From: Stigmatella erecta
GTDB taxonomy: Bacteria; Myxococcota; Myxococcia; Myxococcales; Myxococcaceae
Direction: 5' to 3'
Assembly: GCF_900111745.1 (NCBI RefSeq)
Contig: NZ_FOIJ01000008.1
Coordinates: 1-64,000 of the forward strand
DNA length: 64,000 nucleotides
Part shown: one piece after another, positions 50,653-60,581 of the stretch
Position numbering within the stretch: position 1 is the stretch's first letter
Layout: every line of letters starts with the position of its first letter
The notes under the pieces: generated by a model
Seen by the model: only the letters and a program-made list of their open reading frames with translations
What the model was told of the DNA's origin: nothing
Databases searched by the model: none
Program-made: the position numbers and the translations under genes

Positions 50653-53600
50653 ATGAATCAGTTGATGACACGCCGTTGGGTGCACCTGAGCGCTGCCCTG
50701 CTCCTCTTGGGCGGGTGCGGCACGGAGCCGGCCCGTTCTACCTCTGGCACGAGTGAGGCACGCGGTACGGAAGGCCGCTCCGCCGCGCTCTCCGAAGTTC
50801 CTCCCCCAGCGCTTGGCTCTATCCATCCCACCCTGGCCAGGGAGGGGACGCGGATCACTTTGACGGGCACGGGATTCGGCCCGGGCAGTGTGGGCCAGAT
50901 TGGCCAGGTGCCTTGCACCGAGACCGCATTCAGCTTCTCCACGACGCTCACCTGCACGGTTCCCTCCGTCACGGATGGAACCTATGCGGTCTCCGTCATC
51001 AACCCCGATGGGCAGACCTCGCTCCTGGCCGATGCGCTCACCTTCGACGGCACGCCACCCGTGGGAGGAGGCACGCTGCAGCCCGACGCCTTCGTCAAAT
51101 CCCTCACAAGCTCGCCTGTCCTGCGTTGGAGTGCCTTCTCCGATGCGGAGAGCGGGCTCGGCCACTACGAGTACGCCTTGGGCACCATCCAGGGGGGAAC
51201 AGACATCCTGGCGTGGACGCCGTTCACTCCCGGCACGGGCCCGAGTACCGTCATCACGGGGCTCACGCTCTCGGAAGGGACGGCCTACTTTCCGTCGATC
51301 CGCGCTTATGATCGCGCTGGCAATGTCTCCACCCTCCAGGGCAGCGCCTGGACCGTCGATACCCAAGGCCCCTCGGCCCCCACGGGGCTCACGGACGGAA
51401 GCTTCTCGCTTCAGCTGTCGCTCTCCCCGACGGCGAGCTGGAGCGCCAGCAGTGACTCTGGAAGTGGGGTGGCCTTCTACGAGATGGCGATCGGTGCGAG
51501 CCCGGGTGGCACCGATGCCCTGCCCTGGACCCCGGTTGGAAACGTCACCAGCGCGTTCCGCTCGGATCTGAAGCTCACGGTGGGAACCACCTACTTCACG
51601 TCGGTGCGCGCGATCGACCGGCTCGGAAACGTGGGGGCCTTCGCGAGTGGGGACGGCTGGATGACCATGCTGGTCAGCCCCTCCACGCTGGTCTTCCTCC
51701 CCATGGACAACACCTCTTCCGTTGCCGGGGACAACTCCTCCGCGGACTTCGTGAACTTCGCCAACGCGGGGGCCAGCTTCCGTCCCGTGCTGGCACCGGC
51801 CATCTCCACGGTCTCACCGAAGTACGGGGCCGGCAGTGGCTGTTTCAAGAATGGCTATTTGCAGACCCCCAGCAGCGGGGCCAACATCATCGGCTACAGC
51901 GACTTCACCATCGAGTTCTGGGTCAAGTACAGCGGCTCCCTCGAAACGGCTTTCTCCACGGTGGTCTCTGGCAGTGGCTGGGACATCTCCCTGGGCAACA
52001 CGTACTACAACAACGCCGCCGACTTCTCGTATGGCCACCAATCGGCGCGGTGGTGGGGCGGTGCCGTCGGATGGGGGGTGCTGCCCAAGGGAGTCTGGAC
52101 TCACCTGTCGATTTCCCGGTCCGGCACCAGCCTCTACACGCACCTCAATGGCGTCCTCAAGGAGACGGCCGTCATCCCGGCCGGCACCCGCCTGGAGGGG
52201 GAGGACATCGTCTCGAGCCTCACGGTGGGCAACTTCGCCCCGGCGTACCTGGACGATCTGTTGATCACGGTCGGGGCGGCGAGACACTCCACGGCCAACT
52301 TCACGCCCACGCAGGTGACGGGCCTGCCGTCCATCTACCTGCCGATGGACGCGCCGGGGGAGGGGGAGAACGTCTCCGCGGACTTCCGGAACACGGTGCC
52401 GGCCGGAGCCACCCTGTCGCCCTCGGGTTCACCGGTTCTCTCCAGTGCCGGCTGCGGCGGCTGCGGTGATTTCCGTTCGGGCTCCCTGGCCACGGCCCTC
52501 TCCCCGGCGAATGTGCTGGGAACCCGCGACTTCACGATCGAGTTCTGGGTCAACCACAGCTCCCTGGGGGTCGGCGGCTCTCCGGTGCTCGTGGGGGGAA
52601 ACGCCTCGGGCGCCTTCTGGGACATCTCCCTGGGCAATACGCACTACAACGGGGAGGCGAACTTCGCCTTCTACACCACGCAGGTGAGTGGCTACCGGCA
52701 CTGGGGTGGGGACATCGGCTGGGGCGTCCTTCCGCTCAATACCTGGACGCACCTGTCCCTCACCCGCCTGGGCACGACGCTGATCACCCACAAGAATGGC
52801 GTCATGGTGGAGAAGAAGACGATTCTCGCCACGGACAAAATGGAGGGGCCGAACAGCACGTCTGCCTTCACGATCGGTGGCTACCCGGCCTATCTGGATG
52901 ATCTGATGATCACCGTGGGGAAGGCCCGGCACACGGCCGCCAGTTTCCCGGTGGAGCGGGCGGCCAACGCGCCTCGCATCGTCGAGACGCAGCCCTACGT
53001 CTTCCTTCCTCTGGATGGGGCGAACAACTCGGCGGTCTTCCCGAACCTCGCCGCCTCGGGCGTGACGTTCAGCGCCGTCTCGGCGCCGGTCATCACCACG
53101 TCGCCCTCCAGGTTCGGAGGGGCGAGCGGCAAGTTCCATGGCGGTTCCCTGACGACGGCCACCACCGCCGCGAATGTCCTGGGCACCCGTGACTTCACGA
53201 TCGAGTTCTGGGTGAACTTCGCCACGTACGGAGGCGGTGGCACGCCGGTGGTGTCTGGGAATGGGTGGGACATCTCCCTGGGCAACAGCTATTACAACAA
53301 CAGCGCGGACTTCGCGTATGGCAACCAGCCGACGCGGTGGTGGGGCGGCAGCATCGGGTGGGGCGTCCTCCCGCTCAATAGCTGGGTTCACCTGGCCCTC
53401 TCCCGCTCCCAGAACCGGCTCTACACGCACAAGAACGGTGTGCTCGTCTCGGCCCTCGAGATTCCCGCCGACGCGCACATGGAGGGGGGCGCGGCGACGT
53501 CCGCGCTGGCGATCGGTGAGAGCGCCGCATACCTGGACGACGTGATGATCACGGTGGGCAGCGCCAAGTATTCGACCGCCAACTTCCCGGTGGCGCAGTT

Positions 53601-54222
53601 GGCCAAGCCGTTCATGTACTTGCCGATGGACGGGGCGCACCTCTCGGCGGCATTCCCGAATTACGGAACGGGCCCGGCGGTCTCCAACGTGGCCTCGCCC
53701 ACCCTCACCACCGCCACGGCGGTGCACGGCGGAGCGAGTGCCAACCTGACGGCCGGCAGTCTCACCACCGCCACGAGCTCGGCGTACCGCCTGGGAACCC
53801 AGGACTTCACCATCGAGTTCTGGGTGAACAACAGCGTCCTCGGGGCCGCGGGCTCCCCCGTCATCACGGGCAATGGTTGGGACATCTCCCTCGGCAACAG
53901 CCGGTACAACACCGAAGCCAACTTCGCGTCCTACGCCACCCAGGTCAGTGGGTACCGGCACTGGGGGGGAGACATTGGCTGGGGGACGTTGCCCTTGAAC
54001 ACCTGGGTCCATCTGTCCCTGAGCCGCTCGGGCACGCGTTTGTACACGCACAAGAATGGGGTGCTCGTGTCGGCCGTGACGATTCCCGCCAACACTGTCA
54101 TGGAAGGACCCAACACCACGTCGGCCATCGCGATCGGCGCTCACCCCGCCTATGTGGATGACCTGCTCGTGACGATCGGGAAGGTCCGGCACACGACCGC
54201 GAACTTCACGGTCTACCCGTAA
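50653..54222 (+). CDS. Very large lipoprotein with IPT/TIG domain and four LamG-like domains
   Basis: The protein is 1189 aa. The lipobox signal MNQLMTRRWVHLSAALLLLG ends in GC at residues 21-22. Residues about 55-130 are an IPT/TIG-type Ig fold (PTLAREGTRITLTGTGFGPG). Two fibronectin-like segments follow (about 140-340). Four concanavalin A/LamG-like domains of about 205-220 residues then begin near 347, 561, 782 and 987. Each contains DFTIEFWV, WDISLG, WGGxxGWG, HLS and a closing LDDLxITVG. Domains 1 and 3 resemble each other more closely, as do 2 and 4. Such domains bind carbohydrates or other ligands at the surface. It has no enzyme domain, so adhesion or prey contact is an inference. A strong hairpin follows. 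Confidence 0.88.
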   Translation: MNQLMTRRWVHLSAALLLLGGCGTEPARSTSGTSEARGTEGRSAALSEVPPPALGSIHPTLAREGTRITLTGTGFGPGSVGQIGQVPCTETAFSFSTTLTCTVPSVTDGTYAVSVINPDGQTSLLADALTFDGTPPVGGGTLQPDAFVKSLTSSPVLRWSAFSDAESGLGHYEYALGTIQGGTDILAWTPFTPGTGPSTVITGLTLSEGTAYFPSIRAYDRAGNVSTLQGSAWTVDTQGPSAPTGLTDGSFSLQLSLSPTASWSASSDSGSGVAFYEMAIGASPGGTDALPWTPVGNVTSAFRSDLKLTVGTTYFTSVRAIDRLGNVGAFASGDGWMTMLVSPSTLVFLPMDNTSSVAGDNSSADFVNFANAGASFRPVLAPAISTVSPKYGAGSGCFKNGYLQTPSSGANIIGYSDFTIEFWVKYSGSLETAFSTVVSGSGWDISLGNTYYNNAADFSYGHQSARWWGGAVGWGVLPKGVWTHLSISRSGTSLYTHLNGVLKETAVIPAGTRLEGEDIVSSLTVGNFAPAYLDDLLITVGAARHSTANFTPTQVTGLPSIYLPMDAPGEGENVSADFRNTVPAGATLSPSGSPVLSSAGCGGCGDFRSGSLATALSPANVLGTRDFTIEFWVNHSSLGVGGSPVLVGGNASGAFWDISLGNTHYNGEANFAFYTTQVSGYRHWGGDIGWGVLPLNTWTHLSLTRLGTTLITHKNGVMVEKKTILATDKMEGPNSTSAFTIGGYPAYLDDLMITVGKARHTAASFPVERAANAPRIVETQPYVFLPLDGANNSAVFPNLAASGVTFSAVSAPVITTSPSRFGGASGKFHGGSLTTATTAANVLGTRDFTIEFWVNFATYGGGGTPVVSGNGWDISLGNSYYNNSADFAYGNQPTRWWGGSIGWGVLPLNSWVHLALSRSQNRLYTHKNGVLVSALEIPADAHMEGGAATSALAIGESAAYLDDVMITVGSAKYSTANFPVAQLAKPFMYLPMDGAHLSAAFPNYGTGPAVSNVASPTLTTATAVHGGASANLTAGSLTTATSSAYRLGTQDFTIEFWVNNSVLGAAGSPVITGNGWDISLGNSRYNTEANFASYATQVSGYRHWGGDIGWGTLPLNTWVHLSLSRSGTRLYTHKNGVLVSAVTIPANTVMEGPNTTSAIAIGAHPAYVDDLLVTIGKVRHTTANFTVYP

Positions 54223-56319: not shown

Positions 56320-57396
56320 TCAGTAGATGCTCTCGCAGTACTTGTTCACGTAGAAGAAGGAGGAGGCGGTCCCCGTGCTGCTGTAGAGGTTGCAATCGGA
56401 GCCCAAGCCCGGGGTGAGCAAGGCGCCGCTGTTGATGTCCGGCGAGGTCCCAAAAATGGGATACAGCGGCCGCTGTCTCATCAAGCCCGGGTCCCTGCCC
56501 CACTTGTAGTAACCCTGAGCGTCGGAGCCCTGATAGGCGCTGGTGCCAGACTTATAGAGTGAGGACACGTAAGCGGCGTTGACTTCGTAGTTCATGCTGG
56601 GCCCGGAGTACCGTCTGTTGTCCGGAGCAGCCGTCTCGGAGTAGTCCTTCAGCGTGGTGCTTTGATCGAGCGCGGGCAGGCCCGTGTCGAACCATGCCGA
56701 GGGGGGACCAACGTTCTGCCGCAGCCCGCACTGGCGCGCCCAGTCGATCCGTTCCTTGGCCTCTCGCACGCTCAGCCGGTCGATGGTGCACCGATCCGAG
56801 GAGGGGGCTGCCTCGCAGAGTCCATTGACGTAGAAGCTGGAGCCAGCCGCCAGCACCGTGCCGTTCGGATCATGATAGAAGGAGCAATTGAGCAGCTGCG
56901 GGTGGGGGTAGAGCTGCTGGTTGCTGGGGCTGTAGAGATCGTAGTGGTTCCCGAAGACGGGATAGAGCGGGCGGCTCTTGCGCCGGGCGGCTGGGCGCCA
57001 CCACTCGTAGTAGCCATTGGCGTCCAGGCCTTGGTAGGTCGGCCCGCTCATGTAGAGCTTGCTGATGAGCGAGGCGTTCACCTCGAAGTTGTCGCCCTGG
57101 CTGGTATAGGCGTTCATCCCGGACCAGTTCGAGCTGCTATCGGTCTCGGTGTAATCCTTCAGCGTCCCGCCATTGGCGGCAGGGGCGTAGGTGTCGTAAT
57201 AGGCGCCCGGGGCAATGACGTGGGTGGTCAACGCGCACCGGCGGGCCCAGTGGAGACGCGCCTCGGCCTGGCTCGGGTTCCGGCTGTCCGCGCTGCACCG
57301 CTGCTGGAGGATGGGCTGCGCGTCTGCCTGCTGTGGCAGCCATGCGGTCACACAGAAGGCCGCGAACAGGGCACGTGCGTTCGTCAGGAGCGTCAT
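56320..57396 (-). CDS. Secreted protein with two copies of an uncharacterised ~165-residue repeat
   Basis: The protein is 358 aa from ATG 57396. A signal peptide ends near residue 26 (ADA, then QPILQQRC). Two tandem units follow. Each has an initial Cys segment (RCSADSRNPSQAEARLHWAR / RCTIDRLSVREAKERIDWAR), a YxDT/FDTG region with LKDY(T/S)ET, and an asparagine-rich middle (NASLISKLYMSGPTYQGLDA / NAAYVSSLYKSGTSAYQGSD). Each then has RPLYPxFG and ends FYVNxxCE. The same unit occurs once in the neighbouring Hint protein. Conserved cysteines suggest disulphides outside the cytoplasm. No known family is recognised. It lies downstream of the Hint gene on the same strand, separated by a strong hairpin. 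Confidence 0.75.
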   Translation of the reverse strand: MTLLTNARALFAAFCVTAWLPQQADAQPILQQRCSADSRNPSQAEARLHWARRCALTTHVIAPGAYYDTYAPAANGGTLKDYTETDSSSNWSGMNAYTSQGDNFEVNASLISKLYMSGPTYQGLDANGYYEWWRPAARRKSRPLYPVFGNHYDLYSPSNQQLYPHPQLLNCSFYHDPNGTVLAAGSSFYVNGLCEAAPSSDRCTIDRLSVREAKERIDWARQCGLRQNVGPPSAWFDTGLPALDQSTTLKDYSETAAPDNRRYSGPSMNYEVNAAYVSSLYKSGTSAYQGSDAQGYYKWGRDPGLMRQRPLYPIFGTSPDINSGALLTPGLGSDCNLYSSTGTASSFFYVNKYCESIY

Positions 57397-57419
57397 GGGC
57401 GGGGATTCCAAGGCGGAGG

Positions 57420-57451
57420 CCGGTATGCGGCAGGGGTTTGCCGCATACCGG
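57420..57451 (-). terminator. Strong hairpin between the two paralogous genes
   Basis: CCGGTATGCGGCA (57420-57432) and TGCCGCATACCGG (57439-57451) form a perfect 13-bp stem with loop GGGGTT, 20 bases past the Hint gene stop and 23 bases before the start of its paralogue. It would end or attenuate the first transcript. Confidence 0.7.
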
Positions 57452-57471
57452 TCTCACCTGCTGCCACGGGG

Positions 57472-58539
57472 CTACGGAATGACTTCGGCCGGGATCGTCG
57501 CGCTGAACAGGATGACGCGGTTGATGTAGCCGATGTCGTCGTTCTGGAACGTCGAGGAGCCCACGAGGAAGCCCTGGGCCACGAGGATGTTCGTCACGGG
57601 CTGAGCGGTCACGGGGCGCACGTTGTAGACCTTGCCAAAGTAAGAGGTCTGCCGGATGTCGGTGATGCGGTCGCGCGCGCCGTCGACCTTCACCAGCTCG
57701 TCACCCACCTTGAGCGCCTGCGCCTGCACGAGGCGGCCCTCGCCCTGGATGATGGGGTGCGCCCCGGTGACACGCAGATGTCCACCCGACTCGGTGGAGA
57801 TCTCATAGAGGGTGTGCCGGGTGTCGCGGAGCTCTTCGGTGAAGCTGTAGGTCTGGTTGGTCTGCAGCTGGATGGCGTCCAGCGTGGAGTCTTCGGTCAG
57901 GGTGACCAGATCCTCGCGCATCGCCTTGCGCGCCTCGACGATGGCCTGGGGGCCGTCCGAGAACAGCACCTCCTGCTCCGGCGAATAGCAGCTCGCCCGG
58001 CAGTACCCATTCACATAGAAGGCAGGGGCGGCGACGCCGTTCTTGTAGAGGTTGCAGTCCGCCAGGGTGGGGTGGGGGCGAAGCGGGGTGCCTGAGTTGA
58101 TATCCCTGTTGTCGCTGAAGGTCGGGTAGAGCGGGAGCGGCCGGACCCGGGTGGACAACCCCGTCCACTTGTAGAAGCCCTGCGCATCCTTCGAGCTCGT
58201 GATGGGGGAGCTCAGGTAGATCGTATTCAGGTAGGTAGCGTTAATTTCGTTGTACTGAAAGTCTCCCGAAAACATGCGGCTCGCAGGCCCTGCGGTCGTC
58301 TCCGAGTACTCATACAGGCTGCCACCGTTTTGAGCGGGCATACCGGTGTCGAAGTAAGCCTGGACCCCTCCGGAGTTGTAGGTCAAACCGCACTTGCGCG
58401 CCCACTCGTTGCGCTGGATGGCCTGCGCGGGATCGAGGCTGTCGTCGGTGCAGCGCTGCTCCAAGATGGTGGCGCTTGCCACGGTCGAGTAGCCGAGGAC
58501 TCCCACGACGGTCACGACGTGTTTGAGCCGAAATTCCAT
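57472..58539 (-). CDS. Secreted protein with one repeat unit and a C-terminal Hint (hedgehog/intein-like) domain
   Basis: The protein is 355 aa from ATG 58539, with GGAGG 8 bases upstream. A signal peptide ends near A23. Residues 25-181 are one copy of the repeat also found in the downstream gene. At 184 a Hint domain begins: C184 in CYSPEQEVLFSDG (block A), LRVTGAHPI with T258 and H261 as the TxxH of block B, ALKVGDELV, and VYNVRP followed by ILVAQGFLVGS (block F). The final 27 residues extend beyond. Such bacterial Hint domains cleave or splice their host protein through an N-S shift at the first Cys. The usual terminal His-Asn is absent, so N-terminal cleavage is more likely than splicing. 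Confidence 0.82.
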   Translation of the reverse strand: MEFRLKHVVTVVGVLGYSTVASATILEQRCTDDSLDPAQAIQRNEWARKCGLTYNSGGVQAYFDTGMPAQNGGSLYEYSETTAGPASRMFSGDFQYNEINATYLNTIYLSSPITSSKDAQGFYKWTGLSTRVRPLPLYPTFSDNRDINSGTPLRPHPTLADCNLYKNGVAAPAFYVNGYCRASCYSPEQEVLFSDGPQAIVEARKAMREDLVTLTEDSTLDAIQLQTNQTYSFTEELRDTRHTLYEISTESGGHLRVTGAHPIIQGEGRLVQAQALKVGDELVKVDGARDRITDIRQTSYFGKVYNVRPVTAQPVTNILVAQGFLVGSSTFQNDDIGYINRVILFSATIPAEVIP

Positions 58540-58919: not shown

Positions 58920-60581
58920 TCAGTCCCCGGTGTAGATGCCGATGGAGCCGGCCACCCAGCGCTTGTCACTGCGCTCGTAGCCCATGAAGCCCACGAGGAT
59001 GCGGCGCTTGGCGGCCGAGGTGTCCACCTGGATGTCGGACACGCGGGACATGGCCAGGTCCATGCCAATCACCTGGCTGTTGTAGTGCGTGACGGTGTTG
59101 TCCCGGATGCGGCTGATGCCACCGCCCCAGCTCGTGCCCGCCCACACGCTGCCATCGAGCGGGTCCGCGGAGAGCGAGGCGACGTAGCCCTTGCGGTCCA
59201 CCAGCTCCGTGCTGAAGCGGCGCAGCACCTTGCCCTCGCCGTCGAGCTGGGCCACGCCGTTCGCGAAGGAGCCCACCCACACCGTGCCATCCTTGGCCAC
59301 CGCCATGCCGGAAACGTTGTCGGAGGTGCGCTGCTCGGGGCGCGAGCCGTCCGCCACCGCGTCCGTCCAGATGTCATACCGGTTCCAGGCGTAGGCGCTG
59401 TCCTCGGTCATCGACTGGGCCCGCCAGTAGTTCGGGGCGCCCGTCGCGGTGACGTAGCGGAAGCGCGTGGAGCGGTCCGCGCCGCCGAACCACACGTCCC
59501 CACTGGGGTCCACCGCCACGCCGTAGTAGGCGTCTGTGAGCAGCGCGTTGCGCACGCGCCACTTGGAGGGCTCGTTCGGGTAGAGCTTCGCGTCCTCGGC
59601 CTTGTTCGAATACACGTAGGCGTTGATGGCCGGGTGGACGTGCTCGTAGAGGCCCGCGCACGAGTGCTGCCCGTTGCAGGCCGGGTTGCCCTCGAAGCGG
59701 ATGTCGCCCCAGGCGAAGCCGTGGTTGCCGCCGAACCACACGCTGTTGGTTTTCTTGTCCACCGCGATGCGCAGGATGTTGCAGACCTTCTCCCGGCCGC
59801 GGGGCTCGTCGCGCACCACGTCCGGACCCGAGAAGATGTCGTAGTGCACCGTGGAGAGGGTGCCATCGGGCAGCAGCGTCACCTTGTCCGCGTCCCCGCT
59901 CTTGTAGCGGCTGGCGTCCGGGTTGGCCCCGTCCCAGTTGTTCTCGCAGTGGTTCGCGCCCTCGCCGGGCAGCCCCTCGTAGCCCACGAACACCATGCCC
60001 GAGGCGCCCGCCTTCTTCACGCCGCCGGCCACGGAGATGACCTTGAGGTACTTGGTGCCCGTGGGCGTGCCCCCGCCTGGCAGGTAGCCGTAGGGCCGCA
60101 GGCCGTCGGTCATCGTGAACTTCTGGAAGCTCGTGGCGCCGGGCTTCAGCACGAAGAGGCCCTCCTCGCCGCCCGCTACCCAGATGTTGCCGTCCTCATC
60201 GGACGTCACGCCGTACACCTTCTCCGGGCCCCCCTCGGCCCGGCCGAAGAACTGCCAGCCGGCCGCCGACGGCGGGGGGACGATGATGGGCGGGGTGGGG
60301 GTGGGCGGCGGGGTGGGAGGGGTGCCTCCGTCCGTGGGCGGCGTGCCCCCGTCCGTGGGCGGCGTCCCGGCATCGGGGGTTCCGCCATCGTTCCCCGAGG
60401 AGGGCGGGTCCACCACCACCGGAGGATCCCCCGGCACCCCGGGCGTCTCAGGCCCTGGATTGTCCAGTCCTGGATTGCCCTGCTCCGAGGTGTCGTTGTT
60501 CTCGCCGCCATCCGAGCACGCCGCCGCCGACACCAGCCCCGCCGCCAGCAGTGCTCCCGCCCACTTCCGTCCGCCCTTCAT
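58920..60581 (-). CDS. Beta-propeller lipoprotein with Pro/Gly/Thr-rich linker
   Basis: The protein is 553 aa from ATG 60581. The signal MKGGRKWAGALLAAGLVSAA ends in a Cys (residue 22). A linker of about 85 residues follows, containing tandem GTPPTDG units. The rest is a propeller resembling two-component-regulator propellers, with blades such as GVTSDEDGNIWVAGGEEGLF, NSVWFGGNHGFAWGD, GVAVDPSGDVWFGGADRSTR and MAVAKDGTVWVGSFANGVAQ. It is anchored in the envelope with the propeller exposed. No kinase domain is attached. Its binding partner is unknown. It ends at a clear terminator. Confidence 0.85.
   Translation of the reverse strand: MKGGRKWAGALLAAGLVSAAACSDGGENNDTSEQGNPGLDNPGPETPGVPGDPPVVVDPPSSGNDGGTPDAGTPPTDGGTPPTDGGTPPTPPPTPTPPIIVPPPSAAGWQFFGRAEGGPEKVYGVTSDEDGNIWVAGGEEGLFVLKPGATSFQKFTMTDGLRPYGYLPGGGTPTGTKYLKVISVAGGVKKAGASGMVFVGYEGLPGEGANHCENNWDGANPDASRYKSGDADKVTLLPDGTLSTVHYDIFSGPDVVRDEPRGREKVCNILRIAVDKKTNSVWFGGNHGFAWGDIRFEGNPACNGQHSCAGLYEHVHPAINAYVYSNKAEDAKLYPNEPSKWRVRNALLTDAYYGVAVDPSGDVWFGGADRSTRFRYVTATGAPNYWRAQSMTEDSAYAWNRYDIWTDAVADGSRPEQRTSDNVSGMAVAKDGTVWVGSFANGVAQLDGEGKVLRRFSTELVDRKGYVASLSADPLDGSVWAGTSWGGGISRIRDNTVTHYNSQVIGMDLAMSRVSDIQVDTSAAKRRILVGFMGYERSDKRWVAGSIGIYTGD

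Follow-up and report, generated by a model that had tools for sequence, protein, structure and literature searches.

The two neighboring genes described here, one for a predicted secreted protein with a C-terminal Hint domain and one for a Hint-less paralogue, belong to a real and conserved family of Hint proteins that would not splice and whose job, judged from the sequences, is most likely to free a small secreted domain. This family is tightly linked genetically to a membrane helper, and the gene pair itself represents one stray copy from a larger gene system. The pair lies in a 64,000-nucleotide stretch (the window) that is part of contig C8 of the Stigmatella erecta genome (G000; 9.2 Mb). 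In the best explanation that we can offer, toward which we lean with some reserve, the Hint domain cleaves itself off without splicing and so frees the domain in front of it, the pair being an outlier of a system that comprises the helper and further partners.

Animal hedgehog proteins cut themselves, and what is known of Hint domains in bacteria comes mostly from inteins, BIL domains, and toxins. The family presented here is a multicopy family of secreted Hint proteins under selection, with a helper that a search of the phylum finds only beside Hint genes; it also includes natural twins that lack Hint, and the end of some of these coincides with that of the expected cleavage product. It provides a bacterial test case for what a non-splicing Hint domain does and for whether hedgehog-like ligation exists outside eukaryotes.

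Anatomy of the gene pair and assignment of the Hint domain

The initial annotation described one gene with a signal peptide, a Cys-containing repeat, and a Hint domain carrying C184, T258, and H261, and Table 1 shows that this anatomy, including the three residue numbers, is correct. The repeat, here called the N-domain, is also shared with the neighboring gene as proposed: the Hint protein aligns with the two halves of its neighbor, which has no Hint domain, at 45% and 41% identity (E 2.4e-34 and 2.7e-31).

Table 1. Features of the Hint precursor gene and its paralogue in the window
Feature	Position	Strand	Remarks
Hint precursor gene, 355 aa	57475-58539	(-)	stop 57472-57474; signal peptide, one N-domain, Hint, short tail
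Signal peptide of Hint precursor, residues 1-23 (..VASA)	58471..58539	(-)	read by eye from the sequence
N-domain (repeat of the initial annotation), residues 24-183, end C180-R-A-S183	57991..58470	(-)	about 160 residues, Cys-containing
Hint domain, residues 184-329	57553..57990	(-)	from profile matches and residue conservation
Hint codons	C184 57988-57990; T258 57766-57768; H261 57757-57759	(-)
Predicted scissile bond of Hint precursor	S183-C184
Post-Hint tail, residues 330-355	57475..57552	(-)	no Asn closing Hint, no conserved +1 nucleophile
Hint-less paralogue, 358 aa	56323-57396	(-)	stop 56320-56322; signal peptide and two N-domains
Two N-domains of Hint-less paralogue	about residues 27-197 and 198-358

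The Hint-less protein stops 4 residues past its last Cys, and in the precursor 3 residues lie between the corresponding Cys and the nucleophile. Searches of Pfam and NCBIfam with the repeat-only protein gave no match up to E 1. AlphaFold2 modeling of the whole Hint protein with nine alignment rows (pLDDT 38.7) yielded no usable fold for the N-domain; for the N-domain alone (seven rows), pLDDT was 50.5 and the best Foldseek match had an E of 1.0.

Using the orthologous gene pair in genome G005 as reference, dN/dS values of 0.23 and 0.24 were obtained for the Hint gene and the repeat gene, respectively, and of 0.19 for the Hint part alone; both genes are under purifying selection. The last 26 residues of the Hint protein gave 0.90, a value that reflects few changes, with no constraint visible. 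Upstream of the Hint gene lies a gene for a propeller lipoprotein of 553 residues (58920-60581, minus strand; Reg_prop by Pfam). In the orthologous locus of G005, this place is taken by a different gene, also lipoprotein-like, so that conservation is seen for the pair alone. The Reg_prop propeller may be a partner of the pair; fuller clusters, described below, often carry another kind of propeller lipoprotein. Elsewhere in the window (50653-54222, plus strand), a lipoprotein-like gene of 1189 residues contains about four similar repeats that, named by eye, are LamG-like.

Searched as a single sequence, the window protein matches PT-HINT (E 0.0011) and Intein_splicing (E 0.0022) in Pfam, as well as TIGR01445 intein_Nterm (E 0.0013, residues 184-263), all under the curated cut-offs, and the best match among solved structures has an E of 0.14. 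A profile built from 16 relatives reaches an intein among the solved structures (E 5.1e-6) as well as 2lwy, a bacterial intein-like domain (E 8.9e-4). Up to E 1, its matches comprise 29 distinct solved sequences, mostly named as inteins or intein hosts and none of them a Hog domain. The match of segment 184-330 to Hint profiles, on which the initial annotation had staked its reading in advance, is thus found at the level of the family. Judged by its family profile, the segment is a member of the Hint superfamily, the matches of the single protein being below threshold.

Residue conservation was assessed in an alignment of 108 Hint open reading frames (ORFs) from fetched loci, 107 of which have a letter at each catalytic position; these ORFs are not independent because they are related and were fetched by similarity. 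The homologues keep both residues whose replacement would have counted against the earlier reading, C184 and H261: the former position holds Cys in 106 of the 107 ORFs and Ser in one (L055_9559), and the latter holds His in 106, the exception being L098_6293 (His to Gln). T258 is equally well conserved (106/107), with a change of Thr to Pro in L130_8438. The two genes with a defective TxxH (L098, 6293-7510, minus strand; L130, 8438-9595, plus strand) are similar to each other and lie within otherwise normal clusters.

Around the predicted junction, the -4 position (C180) is Cys in 105 of 107 ORFs, the exceptions being two long-class proteins of the S. erecta genome, and the residue preceding the nucleophile is Gly (62), Ser (34), or Ala (11; n = 107). 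Nearly all short-class proteins read have the motif C-x-x-[G/S/A]-C at this junction. The other end of the domain differs from that of an intein. The last Hint position is Ser in 87 cases, Asp in 17, and another residue in three, with Asn in 0 of 107, and the +1 position is occupied by V (29), S (24), A (17), L (14), Q (11), G (8), or other residues (4). Because the Asn and the +1 nucleophile of inteins are absent, the window Hint domain would not splice. On these residues, the first half of the reaction known from inteins and hedgehog should be possible for the family, and splicing should not.

Distribution of the family, its helper, and its gene clusters

At E <= 1e-5, the Hint profile matches 63 of the 195 genomes searched in the phylum, that of S. 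erecta included. Among these, 56 belong to the same GTDB family, five to family f22, which has small genomes (1.3-1.8 Mb), and two to others; match numbers per genome are lower bounds, with up to 18 candidates scored in each. A longer class of about 650 aa (L015 and L016 in the S. erecta genome) has the Hint part in common with the short class to which the window protein belongs. The N-domains of the short class are diverse; most of those read by eye start with a pattern like RC..D.L....R..WA..C. No domain follows Hint in the short-class proteins that were read; only a short tail lies behind it.

No match to the family was found in the phages searched. The plasmids searched gave one, on Bdellovibrio plasmid AP029178.1 (L152, 3925-7379), where a protein of 911 residues has a C-terminal part consisting of an N-domain-like region and Hint (32% identity, E 9e-20). 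Its gene is followed by one with the architecture of the helper and without a match to the helper profile. The remainder of this large protein is lipoprotein-like and, by eye, has PKD-like repeats. In two small genomes, similar proteins of 876 and 849 residues are encoded beside a Hint cluster (L116, 3783-6413, and L117, 4103-6652, both on the minus strand).

The helper has about 270 residues, which form a single hydrophobic stretch at the N terminus, a spacer rich in Pro and Ala, and a C-terminal part that is conserved; its Pfam matches are at chance level, the best being DUF5724 (0.0064, below cut-off). Searched with a profile of this C-terminal part, the 195 genomes gave 39 matches, spread over 31 of them, and every one of the 39 is within 3 kb of a Hint match. 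This profile derives from a trimmed alignment whose rows come from Hint loci (two of them from f22), and up to 18 candidates were scored per genome. The main helper profile has no match in 32 of the 63 Hint genomes. A separate full-length profile, built without f22, detects the helpers of two f22 genomes (3e-28 and 1e-22); it also weakly matches some genes of the VIT family described below (best 5e-5), probably through the Pro/Ala-rich part. Of the helper types, TM2 was called in 11 loci, all of which have a divergent subtilase, and TM3 in six, all with an M1 peptidase; three further M1 loci have no called helper. HHalign values suggest that TM1 and TM3 are related (96%) and leave a relationship of TM1 with TM2 doubtful (74%).

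Gene maps of the loci listed show a recurrent series of SEC4, VIT, Hint, and helper genes, followed by genes for subtilases, divergent subtilases, M1 or M4 peptidases, or SBBP propeller lipoproteins. We fetched 62 short-class Hint loci, picked from profile matches and in some cases interrupted by contig ends; 56 of these, from 41 genomes, lie outside f22. Among the 56, a helper was found in 44 and a protease or propeller in 46, VIT in 26, SEC4 in 25, and a Hint-less gene in 17. The window is one of the 12 loci without a helper, and no member of the cluster families adjoins its gene pair; the full cluster of the S. erecta genome is on another contig (C23, L013). The initial annotation had read the two genes as a possible surface system. 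The pair is real, and it represents a stray copy of clusters that, where fuller, add the helper and a protease or propeller; the helper and partners of the cluster could act in trans on it.

Pfam confirms an S8 peptidase in L045, one M4 and one M1 gene in L047, and the SBBP propeller in L013, with the remaining protease and propeller assignments based on likeness or motif. The divergent subtilase is taken to be a protease from its motifs and has no Pfam match. Four loci (L011, L098, L099, and L130) have propeller genes only and no protease within the sequence examined.

VIT is a HEAT-repeat protein for which Pfam Vitellogenin_N is above cut-off in 53 of the 195 genomes; the 14 control genomes gave no such match. 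This match covers the helical part only, and against solved structures the whole VIT profile finds HEAT-type repeat proteins. A lipovitellin-like barrel in the N-terminal half, where large lipid transfer proteins have a β-barrel next to the helical domain, was considered and found unsupported: a profile of this half had two chance-level structure matches, neither to a lipid transfer protein, and five N-terminal fragments had no Vitellogenin_N match. Of 105 VIT matches, 33 (in 30 genomes) have a listed Hint match within 12 kb, with less than one expected by a rough estimate, and 72 have none. In 19 loci fetched for VIT away from Hint, VIT was called in 17 and a SEC4-type gene in 11. These VIT-SEC4 pairs, in L132 (G000:C3:579500-596500) and ten other loci, include SEC4 as a secreted protein of no known family. 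Given the 72 VIT matches and the 11 SEC4-type genes away from Hint, VIT and SEC4 seem to form an independent gene pair, one that is frequently added to the Hint cluster.

Fate of the N-domain

We infer cleavage, its product, and the roles of the helper and partners from sequence. In the mechanism that we favor, the precursor would be exported by Sec, after which Hint would attack the S183-C184 bond by an N-S acyl shift, with C184 as the nucleophile and T258 and H261 assisting, and would thereby split itself from the small Cys-rich N-domain. Water or a small thiol would resolve the thioester, so that the N-domain would be released in free form, its new end lying shortly behind a conserved Cys. 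The Hint-less neighbor would supply two N-domains directly, without a cutter. The TM-anchored helper probably holds or times the precursor at the inner membrane, and a secreted protease or propeller lipoprotein of the cluster may work with the N-domain outside the cell; about half of the fetched loci also encode the HEAT/Vitellogenin_N protein with its secreted partner.

The thioester at S183 could instead be passed to a lipid, an amine, or a partner protein, as in hedgehog, leaving the N-domain covalently attached, for example, to the cell surface. We consider this outcome unlikely, yet it deserves weight. The expected first step and the absence of splicing residues are the same as in hedgehog, for which the processing steps were taken from a portion of PMC9163320. 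The 33 of 105 Vitellogenin_N-like matches within 12 kb of Hint, and a Hint gene within 3 kb of every main-helper match, also speak for it. Moreover, a sterol is thinkable in S. erecta, whose genome encodes a 2,3-oxidosqualene cyclase that scores above the curated cut-off (G000:C9:124810-126684, 1004 bits). However, of the 50 genomes with a listed short-class Hint, only 20 match the cyclase strongly (16 over the cut-off) and 30 do not, and hence a sterol is not required by the family. The association between cyclase and Hint is weak (Fisher p 0.046, calculated with a total of 196 genomes; the true number is 195), and the cyclase distribution rules out a sterol adduct as a family-wide requirement. 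Ligation is further disfavored by the post-Hint region of the window protein, which is only about 26 residues long and apparently unconstrained, and by the VIT protein, whose Vitellogenin_N match is confined to helices and whose N-terminal half shows no lipid-transfer structure. More doubtful still is the specific version, a bacterial equivalent of hedgehog processing, in which a helper-assisted Hint machine, in myxobacteria and on the Bdellovibrio plasmid, would activate the C terminus of the N-domain and join it covalently to an acceptor, either lipid or protein, that the VIT-like and secreted partners of the cluster would carry or supply.

It is improbable that Hint is an inactive pro-domain and that the N-domain is cut off by a secreted protease encoded in the cluster. 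Several protease families do occur in the clusters (S8, M4, and M1, each confirmed by Pfam in one gene), but the self-cleavage residues are kept in 106 of 107 ORFs, and L011, L098, L099, and L130 show propeller genes only within the sequence examined. Release of a toxic tip by PT-HINT during delivery, as in polymorphic toxins, is very improbable: PT-HINT is the top-scoring Pfam model, yet the short-class proteins read have just a short tail behind Hint and, as the initial annotation had already remarked for the window protein, no toxin domain. Least credible is a decaying, functionless intein relic, which two members lacking one catalytic residue might suggest and against which stand the dN/dS of 0.19 in the Hint part and the conserved gene neighborhoods.

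Cleavage without splicing, the reading that we prefer, places the family near several known Hint proteins. With inteins it shares Hint similarity, Cys1, and TxxH, whereas it lacks the C-terminal Asn, a conserved +1 nucleophile, and a protein behind the domain. Dori-Bachash et al. reportedly presented a BIL domain type from predatory bacteria in 2009; the protein on the Bdellovibrio plasmid resembles the window family in the start of its N-domain and in Hint. BIL domains of type B, in the excerpted text of PMC4031507, are Hint domains without similarity to intein block G, and the window family likewise consists of bacterial Hint domains without block G for which cleavage is predicted; according to passages of PMC7664689, BIL domains have no +1 nucleophile and for the most part cleave. 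The likeness to the hedgehog Hog domain lies in a C-terminal Hint of a secreted protein with a nucleophilic Cys, TxxH, and no splicing residues, as well as in the residue before the Cys (Gly in 62 and Ser in 34 of the 107 ORFs), whereas the window protein has a short, apparently unconstrained tail where hedgehog has its sterol recognition region, and its family does not require sterol. In Caenorhabditis elegans, the warthog, groundhog, and ground-like proteins combine other N-domains with Hint and have N-domain-only paralogues (part of PMC1636047), an arrangement that, by description, resembles the present one in a eukaryote.

Also comparable by description is a further Hint subgroup of secreted bacterial proteins with C-terminal Hint, which includes one member from Stigmatella and one from Myxococcus (Burglin 2008, PMC2362128, in the portion available). 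Like the window family, it has signal peptides in at least some members, a conserved upstream Cys, and C-terminal Hint. Its members could, at a guess, be the class of about 650 aa (L015, L016) and not the short class. The proposal that the system is undescribed thus holds in part: a description of the Hint-helper cluster was not found in the literature searched, a scope outside of which most subscription journals lie, whereas secreted myxobacterial proteins with C-terminal Hint were noted in 2008 in the same portion of that paper.

Hint-less paralogues

The earlier suggestion to count repeat-only genes in relatives bore fruit: the N-domain profile finds 19 Hint-less genes in the fetched loci, and such paralogues are a recurrent feature of the family. 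Six of the 19 (window, L010, L044, L060, L014, and L107) stop 3-4 residues past the last Cys of the N-domain, the first four of these forming one related group. The other 13 do not stop at the predicted cut. Five of them are of the PPC type, tested with Pfam in L013_3152 and assigned by likeness in the other four, and eight have other tails, the N-domain profile spanning just the first part of the domain in these eight.

The reading frame of L107 ends directly behind the -1 Gly, and traces of a Hint tail lie downstream of it in another frame. Selenocysteine at the nucleophile position of this gene, considered on account of a TGA after the -1 Gly, was rejected in view of a second stop immediately next to it and the Hint remnants in the other frame. 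By eye, an additional Hint-less gene in the small, distant genome G179 (L117) stops 2 residues past the Cys, 29 bases from a Hint gene. In a tree of 57 N-domains of at least 130 residues, the presence or absence of Hint needs five changes, at least four of which are forced by well-supported branches. One Hint-less paralogue (L047, 2449-2922, minus strand) has an end that, by eye, resembles the post-Hint tail of its neighbor (L047, 5686-6528, minus strand), as if the Hint domain were missing from between.
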